Shown here: positions 29,713-57,373 of the stretch, in pieces
Layout of the letters: each line of letters starts with the position of its first letter
Position numbering within the stretch: the first letter of the stretch is position 1
Source of the DNA: Lachnospiraceae bacterium AC2029
Lineage (GTDB): Bacteria; Bacillota; Clostridia; Lachnospirales; Lachnospiraceae
Direction: 5' to 3'
Assembly (NCBI GenBank): GCA_000703065.1
Contig: JNLK01000001.1
Location: forward strand, 2,378,001 to 2,442,000
DNA length: 64,000 nucleotides
Made by a program: the position numbers and the translations under genes
The notes under the pieces: generated by a model
Seen by the model: only the letters and a program-made list of their open reading frames with translations
Database searches by the model: none
Told to the model about the DNA's origin: nothing

Positions 29713-32179
29713 ACAACTGAATAAGGCAGAAAAGCAGGCGGCCAAAGAGGAACGGAAGAGGATCCGTATCTCGGCCTGGAGGGATGAGGATACCCGGGAG
29801 CTCCCGCTCTGTAAGGGCGTGACCATCGATCAGTCCGTCTACAAGATCGCGGAGAACCGACTCTGGACTCTTCTCATCAAGGGATTTATCGTGTATCTCA
29901 TCACTGCAGGAGGGATCGGAAGCTACCTGACGATGATGGAGATCCCATTTTCGGAGATCATCTTCCATACGGTGATCCTGATCACGGCGATCCTTTGTGC
30001 ATGTCTGTATCACAGCTGGAAATCAGAGAACCTGGGTTATCTGATCTTTTTCAGTGTCTACGCAGTCATTCTCTTTCTGTTCCGGGACTACATCAACAGT
30101 GGTTTCTACGCCATAGTCAATGAGACGAATGAATGGATCTCCGCCTATTTCAACACGGAAGGTACGCAGCATTATAACGAGCGGATCGCCAACAGGTATG
30201 CGGCGGTTACGGTTGCCGTGACGCTGATCGGTATCGCGGCGAATATCCTGCTGAATAACTATATTCTCCGCCGGGCGCGGTATATGATCGCGGCGGGCAT
30301 GGGAGTGACACTGAATCTGGTGGGGCTCTACATGGACAAGGAGCCTGCCCTCATGTATTCCCTGATGCTGATCACGGGACTCTGCATGACCTATGTCCTG
30401 AAGTGCGGAAGGCATTTCTGGCTCAGCCGGAATGATCATATCTTCAAACGAAAGAAGTGGGGTCTGTCCTACGGGCATGACCAGAAATCACTCCGACAGG
30501 GAATGCTGCTGGTGCTTGTACTGGTGCTTCTGATCGCAAATGTGGTCAATCTGATCCGGCCGAGGGATCAGTATATCTACTACAGGTCGGAAAGTGAACT
30601 GAAGTCTACTACAAAGGATCAGATCCAGAATCTTCTGATCCTGGGTCTTGCCGGCTTCTGGAACTGGTATCCGAACAACGGTGGTCTTGCCAGCGGTGAA
30701 CTGGGAGGAGTTTCCTCCATCAACCTGGACTACCAGCCGGATCTGAATCTCACATTTACGCCCTACAGTACCGGAACGGTATATGTGAAGAATCTGATCG
30801 GCCAGACCTATGTTCCCAATGAAAATTACTGGATACAGCCTGAGACCTATGATCTGGCGGAGGAGCAGAACCTCTATGACGCGGAAGCCCTGCGGCAGGC
30901 CTACGAGGCAGGAGAGCCGAAGGCAGCGAAGGGAGTCATGCAGATCAAGAACATCGCTGCACCGGCCCAGAACTATCATCCGTACTATACCATGATGGAA
31001 CATGGACCACTGTGGCAGAGGAAGACGCAGGAGTATGAGTATTATCCGCTTCTGGATGAGTCCCTTCTGACCCAGGAGTCCCGTGAGGTGGATCCTGCGT
31101 ACCTGGTGGTACCGGAGGATAACCGTGCAGCCATCAATGATCTGATCGTAGAAGCGCAGCTGTCACCAAAGGATGACCCGGAAATGACGGTCACCAAGCT
31201 TTCGGATTATTTTGAGAAGGAGATACCCTATACGATCCGCCCGGGAGCAACCCCGAGAAGAGAGGATTTCATCAATTTCTTCCTGACAAAGAACCGGAAG
31301 GGCTACTGTGCACATTTTGCCAGCACGGCAGTTCTGACGTTCCGTGCGCTGGGAATCCCGGCAAGATACTGTGAGGGGTATGCGGTTTCCTACAGTCAGA
31401 TCCTGTCCCGCGGTGAACTGGTGGAAGGTGAAGAGAACAATTATGATAAATTCTACAGCGGGTACAATGCACTGGGAGAAACCGCTGTGGTCAGCGTGAA
31501 TGCCACGGATGCCAATGCCCATGCATGGGTGGAGGTATACATCGATAAAAAGGGCTGGGTGATCGCTGAGGTGACTCCGTCCACCTCATCGGATGAGGAT
31601 GAAGAGCTCGGCTCCTTCTGGGAGAATTTCAGCGATCTGTTCGGTGACGGGGATACAGACAATGCGACCGATTCCGGAGACGGAGGCGGAGGTTTCAGAA
31701 TCTCCATCGACGACGGTATCATGAAGATCGTGGCCTATGTCCTGATCGTGCTGATCCTGCTCGCACTGCTGATCTTCCTTGGCTTCAAGGTGGCACCGGT
31801 GATCCGTTACCATATCGCTTACAGCAACGGAGACTGGTCCGAACGTCTGATCCTGTACTACAGCAGGGCCATGAGAAGGCGACGAAGAGACAGTGAACTA
31901 AGGTCCTGTGTGAACTATCGCGAGCAGACAGAACTGCTTTATGACAGAAGAAGAGAAGCAGGGGTTCCGAATTCCGAGTGGATGGAGTATAATGAACCTG
32001 TACAGGTGGATGGCCGAAGAGTGAACTCACCTCCTCTGGAGGAACTGATCCATGTTCTGGAGCAGGCGGGATTCTCGAAGGAACCGATCACCGAAGAGGT
32101 ATTCCATACATCGAAACTTCGGGTGGACGAGCTACTGAAGAAGGTTCGTCAGAAAGGAGCAAAGAAGGATGAGGAGTGA
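29687..32179 (+). CDS. transglutaminase-like membrane protein, cluster 2
   Basis: 830 residues. A basic N-terminal tail (1-60), about six or seven membrane helices (about 70-290), an extracytoplasmic transglutaminase/protease-like domain (about 480-650) and a final helix (about 685-705) with a cytoplasmic tail. The Cys-His-Asp-type core is visible: GYCAHFASTAVLTFRALGIP with the catalytic Cys, ANAHAWVEVYI with His, and the following GWVIAEVTPS. Between helix and tail is a Gly/Ser/Asp-rich linker. This is the TgpA-like architecture of MoxR operons. It may cleave or cross-link surface proteins; the substrate is unknown. The last 11 bases overlap the next gene. Confidence 0.87.
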   Translation: MPRLSSRTKQLNKAEKQAAKEERKRIRISAWRDEDTRELPLCKGVTIDQSVYKIAENRLWTLLIKGFIVYLITAGGIGSYLTMMEIPFSEIIFHTVILITAILCACLYHSWKSENLGYLIFFSVYAVILFLFRDYINSGFYAIVNETNEWISAYFNTEGTQHYNERIANRYAAVTVAVTLIGIAANILLNNYILRRARYMIAAGMGVTLNLVGLYMDKEPALMYSLMLITGLCMTYVLKCGRHFWLSRNDHIFKRKKWGLSYGHDQKSLRQGMLLVLVLVLLIANVVNLIRPRDQYIYYRSESELKSTTKDQIQNLLILGLAGFWNWYPNNGGLASGELGGVSSINLDYQPDLNLTFTPYSTGTVYVKNLIGQTYVPNENYWIQPETYDLAEEQNLYDAEALRQAYEAGEPKAAKGVMQIKNIAAPAQNYHPYYTMMEHGPLWQRKTQEYEYYPLLDESLLTQESREVDPAYLVVPEDNRAAINDLIVEAQLSPKDDPEMTVTKLSDYFEKEIPYTIRPGATPRREDFINFFLTKNRKGYCAHFASTAVLTFRALGIPARYCEGYAVSYSQILSRGELVEGEENNYDKFYSGYNALGETAVVSVNATDANAHAWVEVYIDKKGWVIAEVTPSTSSDEDEELGSFWENFSDLFGDGDTDNATDSGDGGGGFRISIDDGIMKIVAYVLIVLILLALLIFLGFKVAPVIRYHIAYSNGDWSERLILYYSRAMRRRRRDSELRSCVNYREQTELLYDRRREAGVPNSEWMEYNEPVQVDGRRVNSPPLEELIHVLEQAGFSKEPITEEVFHTSKLRVDELLKKVRQKGAKKDEE

Positions 32180-32807
32180 ACGATCGGAAAGAGCAGAGCG
32201 CCGCAGAGTCTGGTGGGCGAGTCTGAATCAGATGACCAGGACCGTTATTCTGATCGTGGTTGCGATCGCGCTGATCATGGGCGGAGTTTGGCTGAAGACC
32301 TTCCTGTTCGGAAAGAGTGAGCCGAAGATCACAGCGGATTATATTACCGGAAAGCTTGAGACCGCCAGTGATCTGACGACTGCGGAGCTGACCTATACCG
32401 GTCTTATAAAATTCGAGGACGGTTCGATCCCTTTACTGACTCAGAAGGGATTTACGATGAAATATACGGCAACCGTACGTGCGGGAATCGATTTCTCCAA
32501 GATCGAGGTTGATGTAAACAGTAAAACGGTCGTGGTTACGATCCCGGAGACGGAGATCCAGTCCGTGGATGTGGATTCCAACTCCATCAGCTTCTATGAT
32601 CAGAGCTATGCGATCTTCAACTGGGGCAGCAAGGATGATGTGACTACAGCGATCCAGGCGGCACAGAATGATGTGGCGTCAAATGCGGATGTGGAGTCGC
32701 TGAAACAGAAATCAGCCGAGCAGACGGAGAAGCTGGTTCGCGGGCTTCTGGAGGATGCCATCGGAGATAAGGAGCTGATCATCAAGAAGAAGGCGGCTAC
32801 GAACTAA
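32169..32807 (+). CDS. DUF4230 family membrane protein
   Basis: 212 residues with a basic N-terminus, one membrane helix (about 24-46) and an extracytoplasmic domain whose TAELTYTGLIKF, YTATVRAGIDFSKIEVDV and VVVTIPETEI segments fit DUF4230. Function of the family is unknown. Its start overlaps the transglutaminase stop by 11 bases, so it is translationally coupled and probably belongs to the same envelope complex. Confidence 0.8.
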   Translation: MRSERSERAERRRVWWASLNQMTRTVILIVVAIALIMGGVWLKTFLFGKSEPKITADYITGKLETASDLTTAELTYTGLIKFEDGSIPLLTQKGFTMKYTATVRAGIDFSKIEVDVNSKTVVVTIPETEIQSVDVDSNSISFYDQSYAIFNWGSKDDVTTAIQAAQNDVASNADVESLKQKSAEQTEKLVRGLLEDAIGDKELIIKKKAATN

Positions 32808-32953
32808 ATCCGGAGGAGCAGCGGGTGTTTGATCCGTTGGCGCATACCGGAGCGTCAACCTCTTTTCCCCGACCGTCATTTGTGAACACATTGCAAACTG
32901 TCTGACAAATCTGCGAATATCACGAAAAAATAAGATAAATTCACAAATCGATA

Positions 32954-32982
32954 TTGACATGTCACGCAAATTGCACTATAAT
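32954..32982 (+). promoter_or_regulatory. perfect consensus promoter of the orphan RNA
   Basis: TTGACA (32954-32959), exactly 17 bases, TATAAT (32977-32982). No open reading frame of credible size follows for 500 bases. Confidence 0.85.
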
Positions 32983-32988
32983 AAACTT

Positions 32989-33363
32989 ACATAGAAAGAG
33001 AACGGATCATACCTGCAGCGGTACTGCAGGAAATACCTCAGGTGGTGAGGGGTAAATAAGCGAGGAAGGAAGGTAGATAAGACGGCCGAAGAAATAGCGT
33101 ATATGGCAACCTTAGTTACCGAGATAAACGTCCTGGAAACCCGGGAGGTACAGACGTCGTAGGATGAAAAGGCTGTATAGATATATCACGTAGAAACAGC
33201 AAATGGCGGTAATTGGTATCACAAGTGGTACGGGAACGTAAGGTACGGGTTGAACGAAATAGAATCAAAGGCGACCTGCCCGTAGGCAAAGGCCAGGTGG
33301 GGACGCAAAAAACTTCATAAGATATATTGGAGGGCATCCACCCGAGATGGATGCCCTCTTTCG
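32989..33363 (+). ncRNA. probable structured non-coding RNA, about 370 nt, family not recognised
   Basis: It is bounded by a perfect promoter and a strong terminator and has no ORF with a ribosome site. Inside are several stems: CCTGCAG-CGGTA-CTGCAGG (33012-33030), a TCCTGG/CCCGGGA hairpin flanked by ACGTC...GACGT near 33130-33160, and GCG-ACCTG...CAGGT-GGGGA-CGC near 33270-33306. The element GGTACGGG occurs twice near 33227-33260. I compared it by eye with RNase P RNA, tmRNA, SRP RNA and 6S RNA and found none of their conserved blocks. Transcript ends are inferred from the promoter and terminator. Confidence 0.7.
33329..33363 (+). terminator. terminator of the orphan RNA
   Basis: GAGGGCATCCA pairs with TGGATGCCCTC (11 bp) across CCCGAGA, followed by TTTCG. 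Confidence 0.85.
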
Positions 33364-33493
33364 TATTGTTTGGTCTTACCTACCTTGCGATTCATTCACG
33401 AATCTTCTCCATTTTTCGTATCTTCGCTACCTGAATTCGGGATGAAGTGAATTTCCACTTCAGATAATCAGGGAAGTATGTTAGAATACCCGC

Positions 33494-34003
33494 ATGGAAA
33501 AAAAGACTTCAAAAAGAGTGATCGTGTTTCGGGTTCTGGTGATCCTTTGGATGATCGTGATCTTCCTTTTCTCCGCCGCAGACGGAAATGAGTCTTCAAA
33601 AACCAGTGGCTGGGTGGGCCGGATGATCGGCTCCATCTTCCATTCGGACTTTGAGGACTGGACAGAGGAGGAGCAGGAGGCCTACGCCGAGAAGATCGAA
33701 TATCCCATAAGAAAAGCAGCCCATGCCACGGAATATGCCGTGCTGGCACTGCTTTTCTTCGGTGCGCTGCCCTTCGAGGGAAAGAAAAGGTATCTTCTTT
33801 CCTGGCTCTTCGCAGCACTCTATGCATGTACGGATGAGTTTCACCAGCTCTTTGTTCCCGGACGGGCCGGGACGCTGTTCGATGTAGGTGTGGACAGTCT
33901 CGGGGCGCTGGCAGGACTTCTCATTCTGTGGGGGATCCTCAGTCTCAGAAAGAAACTCCGGAAACATCCGGACGAACGGTGCACGCCCACGCAAACTCCG
34001 TAG
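33494..34003 (+). CDS. VanZ-like family membrane protein
   Basis: 169 residues with four membrane segments. The VanZ-like core RKAAHATEYAVLALLFF...ALYACTDEFHQLFVPGRAGTLFDVGVDSLGAL is complete, including the conserved His, Glu and Asp residues facing the membrane interior. VanZ itself gives low-level teicoplanin resistance, but most VanZ-like proteins stand alone with unknown function; no glycopeptide-resistance genes are near. The upstream 130 bases contain a GAAGTG/CACTTC hairpin and TAGAAT but no convincing -35. Confidence 0.88.
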   Translation: MEKKTSKRVIVFRVLVILWMIVIFLFSAADGNESSKTSGWVGRMIGSIFHSDFEDWTEEEQEAYAEKIEYPIRKAAHATEYAVLALLFFGALPFEGKKRYLLSWLFAALYACTDEFHQLFVPGRAGTLFDVGVDSLGALAGLLILWGILSLRKKLRKHPDERCTPTQTP

Positions 34004-39841: not shown

Positions 39842-39963
39842 TGCACGCTTGCGTGCATAGTTGCAATCGCTGAGCTGCGGCCTGCGAAGCAGGACCGGCA
39901 CGAAGCGTCGCAGACAGAAGCCGCGAAGCGGCGACGGATGCAGCAGAGCTGCAGACGGTCTGC
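39842..39963. repeat. hairpin cluster with GAA loops
   Basis: Consecutive stems: TGCACGC-TT-GCGTGCA (39842-39857), CCTGC-GAA-GCAGG (39881-39893), GCCGC-GAA-GCGGC (39920-39932), GCAGC-AGA-GCTGC (39940-39952) and GCAGAC-G-GTCTGC (39951-39963). Non-coding; resembles the array at 25.4 kb. Confidence 0.75.
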
Positions 39964-39970
39964 GACCGAG

Positions 39971-40140
39971 GCGTGCCGGCAAATAGAACCGCTGTCCGCA
40001 GCGTGCCGGCAAATAGAACCGCTGTCGGCAGCGTGCCGGCAAATAGAACCGCTGTCGGCAGCGTGCCGGCAAATAGAACCGAAGCCCGAGGCGTGCCGGC
40101 AAATAGAACCGTTGTCCGAGCGTGCCGGCAAATAGAACCG
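39971..40140. repeat. six-copy 30-bp tandem repeat
   Basis: Units begin at 39971, 40001, 40031, 40061, 40091 and 40120 (the last after 29 bases). Each starts GCGTGCCGGCAAATAGAACC, while the remaining about 10 bases vary. The array ends about 20 bases before the TcdA-like start codon. A plus-strand frame would read ACRQIEPLSA repeatedly, but without a ribosome site. Units touch each other, with no unique 30-base spacers, so it is not a CRISPR array. Confidence 0.9.
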
Positions 40141-40160
40141 TGAAAGAAAGGACTCCATCC

Positions 40161-55395: not shown

Positions 55396-55424
55396 TTGAC
55401 ATCCCGGAGGGTGCGTTGTATAAT
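55396..55424 (+). promoter_or_regulatory. perfect consensus promoter of amtB
   Basis: TTGACA (55396-55401), exactly 17 bases, TATAAT (55419-55424). The next start codon is about 190 bases away, after a structured leader. Confidence 0.85.
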
Positions 55425-55430
55425 TCAGAC

Positions 55431-55612
55431 TCGTAAAGGCAAGGGCGTCTTGGAGATCATTCCAAGGCGCCTTGTTTTATATCATAAAATGCAGCCCGTG
55501 AAAGGGGCGCAGGCGATGCAATGGTGTTTCGCTTCTCATGCAGAGGAACACCGCCGGCATCCTCCCTGCAGATGAAAGAAGCACCGATCGCCCGAAAGAG
55601 AGGTGCTTTTTT
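55431..55612 (+). promoter_or_regulatory. structured leader RNA of amtB, candidate attenuator/riboswitch
   Basis: First, a hairpin CAAGGGCGTCTTGG / CCAAGGCGCCTTG (about 55439-55475) followed by TTTTATAT, terminator-like. Then a nested stem: GCAGG (55509) with CCTGC (55565), GATGC (55515) with GCATC (55557), GGTGTT (55523) with AACACC (55547). Then AGCACC...GGTGCT (about 55580-55606) with TTTTTT directly before the ATG; this last stem buries the AGAGGTGC ribosome site. The layout suggests conditional termination or translation control. I do not recognise a known riboswitch class. Confidence 0.6.
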
Positions 55613-57373
55613 ATGTTAGAAGAAATGATGAGTGCAATGGATGGGAAGCTTTTTGCCGTGTGGTTCCTGATAGGCGCGGCGCTTGTGTTCTGGATGCAGG
55701 CAGGTTTTGCCATGGTGGAGTCCGGATTTGCCCGGGCGAAGAACGCAGGTAACATCCTGATGAAGAACCTGATGGACTTCTGTATCGGTTGTGTGGTATT
55801 TATCCTGATCGGTTTTGGTCTGCTGCTTGGCGAAGACCTGGTAGGGTTCATCGGAAAACCCGGATTTGATATTTTTACAGAATATGAAAACTTTGACTGG
55901 TCGAATTTCATTTTCAACCTTGTGTTCTGTGCAACAACGGCAACCATCGTATCCGGTGCCATGGCAGAACGTACGAAGTTCCTCAGCTACTGTGTATACT
56001 CCGCAATCATCTCAGCTCTGATCTACCCGATCGAGGCACACTGGATCTGGGGGGGCGGCTGGCTTGCAGATCTCGGCTTCCATGATTTCGCAGGTTCCTG
56101 CGCGATCCACATGGTGGGCGGTATCGCAGCCTTCGTCGGAGCAAAGATGGTTGGTCCCAGAATCGGTAAGTTCGAGCGGGACGAGAATGGTAAGGTTATC
56201 AAGGTCAACGCATTCCCGGGTCATAACCTGGTAATCGGAGCTCTGGGTGTATTCATCCTCTGGCTCGGCTGGTATGGTTTCAACGGTGCTGCATGTACTT
56301 CGGTAGATCAGCTGGCAAGCGTATTCGTAACAACAACGATCGCACCTTCCGTAGCAACGGTAGTCTGCATGATCTTTACATGGATCCGTTATGGTAAGCC
56401 GGATGTTTCGATGTGTCTCAACGCATCTCTGGCAGGTCTGGTTGCGATCACCGCAGGATGTGACGTAACAGACGCTCTCGGATCAGGTATCATCGGCGCG
56501 GTAGCAGGCGTTCTGGTCATCTTCGGTGTATGGCTTCTGGATTACAAGCTTCATATCGATGATCCGGTCGGTGCATGTGCAGTACATATGCTGAACGGTA
56601 TCTGGGGTACCATCGCAGTCGGTCTTTTTGCAACAACGACTGCTCCCGGAAATGATGAGCTCAGCGGTCTCTTCTACGGCGGCGGAGTTGAACTCCTTGG
56701 AAAGCAGGCTCTTGGATTTGCAGCAGTAGCAGCATGGGCAGCCATCTGCATGATCATCGTATTCCTGATCATTAAGAAGATCTTCGGACTTCGTGTCACT
56801 GAAGAAGAGGAACTGGAAGGTCTGGATCTGACCGAGCACGGTCTTGCATCCGCATACTCAGGTTTCAGTATCGTTGATATGTCCAGCGCTATGATGAGTG
56901 AGAATGAGAACACAAATCTTGGTGAATCGGATTATGATAAGGCCAGTGAGGCAAAACGGAACGCAGCGGTTCCGGTACAAAATGTAGCGGCAGCCATGGC
57001 GGGTACGATACCCGACACCGGTATCAACAAGGTAGTCATCATTACCAAGCTGTCGCGGTATGATAAGATCAAGAGAGCCCTCAATCAGTTGGGCGTTACA
57101 GGTATCACCGTTACACAGGTCAGCGGCTGTGGTATCCAGAAGGGTACCGGCGAGATGTATCGTGGAGTTGAGATGGATATGACCCTTCTCCCGAAGATCA
57201 AGCTGGAGGTCGTTGTCAGCGGTATCCCGGTTGACAGTGTGATCGAAACAGCAAAGAGGACGCTGTACACCGGTAAGATCGGTGATGGAAAGATTTTCGT
57301 ATATCCGGTCAGCAGAGTTGTAAAAATCCGTACAGGAGAGGAGAATTACGAAGCTCTGCAGGATGTGGAATAA
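55613..57373 (+). CDS. ammonium transporter fused to a PII (GlnK-like) domain
   Basis: 586 residues. Residues 1-410 are an Amt/Mep channel with 11 or so helices: MQAGFAMVESGFARAKNAGNILMKN (N-terminus), HMVGGIAAFVGA, FLIGAAL, and paired His regions (FPGHNL, CAVHMLNGIWGT). After a 60-residue linker, residues about 472-586 form a complete PII domain: TKLSRYDKIKRALNQLGVTG, the T-loop QKGTGEMYRG, LPKIKLEVVV, B-loop TGKIGDGKIFVYPV and RTGE. The T-loop Tyr51 uridylylation residue of classical PII is Met here (YRGVEM). Normally GlnK is a separate protein that plugs AmtB; here they are one chain. ATG 55613 has AGAGGTG upstream. Confidence 0.93.
   Translation: MLEEMMSAMDGKLFAVWFLIGAALVFWMQAGFAMVESGFARAKNAGNILMKNLMDFCIGCVVFILIGFGLLLGEDLVGFIGKPGFDIFTEYENFDWSNFIFNLVFCATTATIVSGAMAERTKFLSYCVYSAIISALIYPIEAHWIWGGGWLADLGFHDFAGSCAIHMVGGIAAFVGAKMVGPRIGKFERDENGKVIKVNAFPGHNLVIGALGVFILWLGWYGFNGAACTSVDQLASVFVTTTIAPSVATVVCMIFTWIRYGKPDVSMCLNASLAGLVAITAGCDVTDALGSGIIGAVAGVLVIFGVWLLDYKLHIDDPVGACAVHMLNGIWGTIAVGLFATTTAPGNDELSGLFYGGGVELLGKQALGFAAVAAWAAICMIIVFLIIKKIFGLRVTEEEELEGLDLTEHGLASAYSGFSIVDMSSAMMSENENTNLGESDYDKASEAKRNAAVPVQNVAAAMAGTIPDTGINKVVIITKLSRYDKIKRALNQLGVTGITVTQVSGCGIQKGTGEMYRGVEMDMTLLPKIKLEVVVSGIPVDSVIETAKRTLYTGKIGDGKIFVYPVSRVVKIRTGEENYEALQDVE

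Follow-up and report, generated by a model that had tools for sequence, protein, structure and literature searches.

Evidence for a conserved, free-standing structured RNA beside a DUF4230 gene in one subclade of a Lachnospiraceae genus

The window, that is, the whole stretch of 64,000 nt analysed here, carries a perfect promoter, a predicted RNA of about 375 nt and an intrinsic terminator in the space between the genes for a DUF4230 protein and a VanZ-like protein. The features of the locus are as follows.

32169..32807, plus strand: gene for a DUF4230 protein, the upstream neighbour (PF14014, E 1.5e-26)
32900..32908, plus strand: upstream promoter element GTCTGACAA, found in 12/12 aligned copies
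32954..32982, plus strand: sigma-70-type promoter TTGACA-N17-TATAAT (12/12 consensus positions, 17-nt spacer)
32961..32969, plus strand: spacer box GTCACGCAA, of which GTCnnnCAA is kept in 12/12 copies
32989..33363, plus strand: the RNA; the start is put about 7 nt after the −10 box, the end is that of the terminator
33012..33030, plus strand: 5′ hairpin H1 (CCTGCAG..CTGCAGG), two pairs changed on both sides (6 sequences)
33034..33054, plus strand: 5′ hairpin H2, two pairs changed on both sides (6 sequences)
33062..33078, plus strand: purine-rich segment GAGGAAGGAAGGTAGAT, from the alignment of 11 copies
33128..33239, plus strand: core of ~120 nt with four nested helices, P1–P4
33128–33135/33231–33239, plus strand: helix P1, with one bulged A
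33147–33151/33216–33220, plus strand: helix P2
33155–33158/33205–33208, plus strand: helix P3
33172..33200, plus strand: P4 hairpin GCUGU-AUAGAUAUAUCACGUAGAA-ACAGC, with a near-invariant loop
33275..33301, plus strand: hairpin P5 (CCUGCC..GGUGGG, with tandem U-G/G-U pairs and an inner GGC/GCC)
33313..33323, plus strand: conserved segment CTTCATAAGAT preceding the terminator, from the alignment
33329..33359, plus strand: intrinsic terminator, hairpin GGAGGGCATCCA-CCCGAGA-TGGATGCCCTCT with loop CCCGAGA
33494..34003, plus strand: gene for a VanZ-like protein, the downstream neighbour (PF04892, E 2.3e-22)

The promoter is perfect, as the earlier note had stated, but shares the rank of best in the window with a second perfect promoter at 55396–55424. 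Within its own 4.5-kb stretch, seven other sites match 9/12 consensus positions each. Perfect TTGACA-N16..18-TATAAT sites number 31 genome-wide, against 0 for a reversed-pattern control. Several of the 31 carry inverted repeats in the spacer (e.g., TTGACAGGCTAACATATGTTAGCTATAAT), suggesting operator sites. The second perfect promoter of the window, TTGACATCCCGGAGGGTGCGTTGTATAAT, stands ahead of a leader that is hairpin-rich by eye and of an ORF (55538–57373) whose product combines an ammonium transporter with a P-II domain (PF00909, E 7.7e-121; PF00543, E 2.1e-23); this leader could be nitrogen-regulated. A search of viral contigs for the pattern of the RNA promoter returned near-identical stretches with TTGACATGTCACGCAATGCGTGGTATAAT from two of them (L170, 3976–4004; L171, 12892–12920), in which the −35 region and the start of the spacer are nearly the same as those of the RNA promoter. 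The viral stretch precedes a short ORF that by eye resembles a small type I toxin, and model R3 found no RNA there.

Among the copies described below, TTGACATGTC is present in 10 of the 11 full ones and TTGACGTGTC in the remaining one; the −10 box is TATAAT in nine, and TAAGAT and TACAAT in the other two. The upstream box reads GTC[T/A]GACAA in 11 of the 12 aligned copies (GACTGACAA in G024) and starts 54–55 nt 5′ of the −35 start in all 12, with an A-rich stretch between it and the promoter. The spacer box resembles this element (GTCnnnCAA) and lies 61–62 nt downstream of it. With gaps counted, mean identity is 52% in the promoter and upstream region (12 copies) compared to 18% after the terminator (11 copies). 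A genome search for further members of a regulon, using the first box upstream of TTGACA, returned the RNA locus alone, against three hits for the reversed control. Because the upstream box is kept in all 12 alignable promoters, transcription of the RNA is probably regulated rather than simply constitutive. A DNA-binding regulator might occupy both of the GTCnnnCAA-like boxes, in which case the RNA would be made under particular conditions. Expression itself is predicted from the promoter and terminator, and the RNA may be abundant.

From 5′ to 3′, the RNA is made up of H1, H2, the purine-rich segment, a middle domain, the P1–P4 core, P5, CTTCATAAGAT and the terminator, and across the family its length ranges from about 360 to 630 nt. 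Eight copies (type 1, including that of the window) are close to the window's, and three (type 2; G034, G019 and G468) are divergent. The middle domain is an extra, variable part that six type 1 copies carry 3′ of the purine-rich segment, and is nearly absent from the window copy (G000) and from G036. At the position of CTTCATAAGAT the three divergent copies read CTGAATA. The terminator proposed in the earlier note is present as a hairpin of 11 pairs; its T-run is modest in the window (TTTCG) and longer in some relatives, and its loop, CCCGAGA, is found in 10 of 11 copies. The same heptamer recurs in the P5 region of one divergent copy (G019, L022), and CCCG occurs in both P5 and the terminator of most type 1 copies, possibly as a repeated binding motif. 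Folding of the 376-nt transcript gave −107.1 kcal/mol (z −2.75, with 1 of 100 shuffles as good), and single-sequence folding of the core was unremarkable (z from +0.62 to −2.17 in the 11 copies, −1.40 in the window). The case for a structured RNA is carried by conservation between relatives, not by thermodynamics.

The description of this ~375 nt as a structured stretch lacking an ORF was borne out. Plus-strand ORFs in the window copy do not exceed 35 aa, and no ORF is common to all copies. Six type 1 copies have a common ORF start (MQSPVAGDG or close) over the middle-domain hairpin; it diverges at once, giving products of 20–94 aa. An ORF of 19–22 aa starting in the P4 loop was seen in three copies and is absent from that of the window. 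Over the core, every plus-strand frame contains a stop in 11/11 copies, while on the antisense strand one frame is open in eight; in the other three, all six frames are stopped. The longest antisense ORFs are 36 to 92 aa (73 aa in the window, 33116–33337). Elsewhere in the window (39938–40143), ORFs repeat the unit CRQIEPLSAA, reflecting a short tandem DNA repeat.

Covariation was assessed by shuffle counts on 11 related sequences, with statistics that ignore kinship. In the alignment fitted to the model (A6), 96.3% pairing was seen and 11 of the 22 core pairs showed changes on both sides, a count reached by 0 of 500 shuffles; in the stem-only alignment, which was anchored by hand, 10 of 24 pairs were changed on both sides compared to 3.5 expected (again 0 of 500 shuffles as high). 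Both ways of aligning make the pair counts lean towards structure, and the three divergent copies account for the bulk of the core's helix changes. When the stem-only alignment was slid out of register, pairing was at most 52%, against 92.8% in the true register. Trained on type 1 copies alone (eight), a covariance model detected all three type 2 copies (E 2e-11, 1.5e-8 and 1e-5). Outside the core, changes on both sides were seen in three of nine P5 pairs and in nine of 11 terminator pairs (8 sequences each), jointly 12 of 20 pairs, which was matched by 0 of 500 shuffles. The evidence for H1 and H2 is weaker (four pairs, equalled by 12 of 500 shuffles). The five pairs of P4 are invariant in all 11 copies while the neighbouring helices covary, so that they give no evidence of pairing and instead indicate a sequence requirement.

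The core measures 119–121 nt in ten copies, differing by 1–2 nt, and its internal spacings are nearly constant in 10 of 11. All type 2 copies keep P4 and two of them keep the core length; the core of G034 is ~20 nt longer (141 nt). For the window copy and several further type 1 copies, energy minimisation of the core yields an alternative fold, in which a local hairpin (GUAUCA/UGGUAC) competes with P2. The type 2 copies fold into the nested form and, by inspection, do not have the GUAUCA/UGGUAC option, which makes P1–P4 probably the ancestral fold. The competing fold would then be noise, or else a switch.

If the RNA is functional, it would be expected to be conserved in related genomes, and the earlier note had proposed this comparison. 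Of 61 genomes searched by blastn, nine had matches, that of the window among them; all nine are from one genus. The flanking DUF4230 and VanZ proteins were used to locate the same intergenic space in further genomes, and a covariance model from eight copies then placed the RNA, with its covarying helices, in 11 of the 61 genus genomes. Two more loci are cut by contig ends: G009 holds the first part of the RNA only, and in G018 nothing beyond the −35 side is left, as the contig ends inside the promoter. DUF4230 hits were found in 29 genomes. The ten with at least 59% identity all have the RNA or its cut start (G009, G018), and the other 19, with at most 49% identity, gave no RNA match. Such a distribution is compatible with a single origin within the subclade, or with loss elsewhere. 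A motif script run downstream of DUF4230 in 15 of these 19 distant genus genomes, two of which offered only 190–226 nt, found one isolated CTGTATAG and nothing more of the RNA motifs; another of these loci has two promoter-like sites.

Wider searches gave a similarly narrow distribution. A scan for the P4 pattern in 84,980 species (one genome each) returned 11 stretches, ten of which are genuine by model R3 (84–131 bits); the eleventh (L087) was dropped as a chance hit, as it scored 18.5 bits over the hairpin only. The ten appear to be identical to ten of the genomes denoted G here, other than the window's. In 397 genomes of the family, the P4 pattern was found in the window's own copy only, and model R3, in a screen that scored nine candidates per genome and could miss distant relatives, gave four hits: the window and three borderline cases (E 0.004–0.009), which we regard as chance matches, since each lies within an open frame of ~150 codons. 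Two weak R3 hits among 38 of the 50 genus genomes that had no R1 hit (E 0.03 and 0.08) were also taken as chance, and lie in open stretches of 77 and 118 codons, respectively. There were 0 matches to the RNA among 50,697 phage and 72,556 plasmid records and 0 matches to the P4 pattern in viral contigs, and a mobile or phage origin was rejected on these grounds. The relatives come from rumen samples: rumen or omasum is stated for three, and the RUG prefix on their records presumably denotes rumen genomes. So far, the RNA is known only from one subclade of one Lachnospiraceae genus.

The genes on either side differ in how constant they are. DUF4230 is upstream in 11/11 copies, and VanZ is downstream, in the same direction, in nine. 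G019 has an ORF lacking any Pfam match in this place, and the VanZ hit of that genome is on a different contig; in G468 an ORF resembling threonyl-tRNA synthetase follows the RNA. Several genomes have a −10-like box close to the VanZ start codon, at a distance of up to about ten bases (TTAGAAT in the window; TATAAT in G474, G476 and G024), and neither the sequence nor the distance from terminator to VanZ is conserved. In the window (33476–33494) this box ends 6 nt before the ATG, as it also does in G474, G476 and G024, and the VanZ mRNA may be leaderless. Since the downstream gene varies and VanZ has −10-like boxes of its own, the RNA very probably constitutes a separate gene. Its promoter and terminator are kept together with it and its covarying pairs exceed chance, as expected of a free-standing non-coding RNA; a riboswitch or attenuator would control the same downstream gene in all members, with no separate promoter, and here this gene differs in two of 11. 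Taking these lines together, we regard a real, conserved and free-standing RNA as highly probable.

The earlier note had called the RNA an orphan that it failed to match to RNase P, tmRNA, SRP or 6S RNA, and had suggested a search of all Rfam models, in which a confident hit would make it a known RNA. No such hit was obtained. At gathering score, Rfam 15 (4227 families, among which we take raiA, ROOL, GOLLD, OLE, RNase P, tmRNA and SRP to be represented) found only a tRNA in the whole window. With E values up to 10, the RNA region gave RAGATH-30 only, at 15 bits where 59.5 are needed (E 3.3), which is not credible. Among ten relatives searched at E up to 2 there were six hits below gathering score, none of them inside the RNA of its locus. 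A sub-threshold match to Clostridiales-1 RNA (RF01699; 30 bits compared to 48, E 0.007) is found just downstream of the RNA in G034 (L021, 2754–2867). By these model tests, the RNA belongs to no Rfam 15 family. A literature search found no paper on it; survey supplements lay outside that search, and an unnamed earlier prediction is possible.

Comparison of the copies shows that the promoter architecture is conserved, that the RNA stands free of its neighbours, that helices covary and that one hairpin does not vary at all; the explanation we favour starts from these. It is a free-standing structured non-coding RNA gene with its own promoter and intrinsic terminator, in which P1–P3 would form a long irregular stem on which P4 is presented to a single specific partner. 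This partner is most likely a protein; the RNA would act in trans as part of an RNA–protein complex, and the fast-evolving middle domain would be dispensable. We give this explanation, including the protein partner, a probability of about one half. The usual reading of a P4 that is invariant while its neighbours covary is sequence-specific recognition, although tertiary contacts, a ligand or an RNA partner fit the invariance equally well. Gene linkage points to a protein partner weakly, through the upstream DUF4230 gene only.

The alternative that survives best, possible though clearly less probable, is a trans-acting regulatory RNA whose conserved unpaired stretches pair with mRNAs, the rest serving as scaffold. 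Candidates for such stretches are the P4 loop, the purine-rich segment, CTTCATAAGAT and the terminator loop CCCGAGA, and it is in keeping with this that loops and single-stranded stretches are conserved, that the terminator loop is kept while its stem covaries, and that the promoter looks regulated, as is common for pairing RNAs. However, no gene shared among the 11 genomes has the 12-nt complement of the P4 loop (TTCTACRTGATA) at a common position. This complement occurs seven times outside the RNA (0–2 per genome); the loci in G000 and G019 have a homologous gene, but the site is inside the gene in one only, and the remaining loci have no gene in common. This mildly favours a protein over an mRNA partner. 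At 360–630 nt and with a complex core, the RNA is also large for a simple pairing RNA.

The RNA could instead be a cis-acting leader of VanZ, a riboswitch or attenuator with a regulated terminator, given that VanZ follows in the same direction in most copies and that the competing pairings around P2 in some type 1 copies are what a switch would show. The absence of VanZ as the next gene in G019 and G468, the −10-like boxes directly before VanZ in several copies and the unconserved interval from terminator to VanZ all count against it, and we consider it improbable. Just as doubtful is a large RNA-only assembly of the ROOL, GOLLD or OLE type, in which the RNA would multimerise into a particle. 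The size range and the ornate conserved folding would suit it, and a ROOL RNA likewise came from cow rumen (PMC12286853); no Rfam match to ROOL, GOLLD or OLE was obtained, however, and the phage, plasmid and viral-contig collections held nothing of the RNA, while ROOL and GOLLD are phage- or prophage-encoded (PMC12286853). An unrecognised short protein-coding gene or dual-function RNA is the least probable reading and was rejected, because the ORFs are shared only partially and none is retained across all copies: the conserved purine-rich stretch does resemble a ribosome-binding site, six type 1 copies share the MQSPVAGDG start, three have the short ORF over P4 and eight of 11 have an antisense frame open over the core, but the common starts either diverge or do not occur in the window copy, G000 and G036 lack the middle domain, and a core that differs in length by 1–2 nt among ten copies has all plus-strand frames stopped in 11/11.

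Returning to the free-standing RNA with a protein partner, a bolder version, which we consider rather unlikely, is that it represents a new class of large RNA in which a long stem presents the unvarying 29-nt hairpin to a single dedicated protein. A regulator at the two GTCnnnCAA boxes, which are spaced by about six turns of the helix, would switch its synthesis, and the core might in addition change conformation between P2 and the competing local hairpin. If true, the RNA would be a riboregulator specific to this lineage that arose within one genus and works in a way unlike that of any described class. The RNA is clearly constrained and occupies a fixed place, and it was not found in Rfam or in the searched genomes outside its subclade, making it a tractable example of a large structured RNA that has recently arisen or been widely lost. 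The covariation in the divergent copies suffices to draw the core fold, and the unvarying hairpin and the promoter boxes are exact pieces to test. For the orphan large RNAs of gut and rumen Firmicutes, it adds one more testable case, only if a cultured member proves tractable.

Several known RNAs resemble the window RNA in part. 6S RNA (RF00013) is a free-standing, promoter-driven RNA, as is proposed for the window RNA. The two are different, as the window genome has a separate 6S gene of 181 nt at genome position 216657–216837. Across the 61 genus genomes the 6S model scored over its cut-off in 53 and at E 0.001 or better in 55, and it gave no match to the RNA, so that identity with 6S RNA, or replacement of it, was rejected. 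OLE, a conserved bacterial RNA of large size, probably works together with proteins; its neighbour genes are different from those of the window RNA, to which its covariance model gave no match. The raiA RNA, which we take to be Rfam RF03072, is free-standing as well. A possible RpsU pocket of OLE is discussed in PMC12286853; raiA, whose structure has been solved as that of a monomer, is a complex and conserved Clostridium RNA with a motif length of 205 nt (PMC12286853). The window RNA, at about 375 nt, is longer than this and has no match to the raiA model of Rfam at E up to 10. ROOL stands for Rumen-Originating, Ornate, Large; one example from cow rumen measures 659 nt, and phages and prophages encode both ROOL and GOLLD, frequently close to tRNA islands (PMC12286853). 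ROOL is like the window RNA in its similar size and multiple domains. It differs in that its covariance model gave no match and in its phage or prophage setting; the window RNA keeps one fixed place beside DUF4230 in 11/11 copies, and the sole tRNA that Rfam found in the window lies 28 kb away. The family thus appears to be new, and its kind, the orphan structured RNAs of Firmicutes, is one already known.
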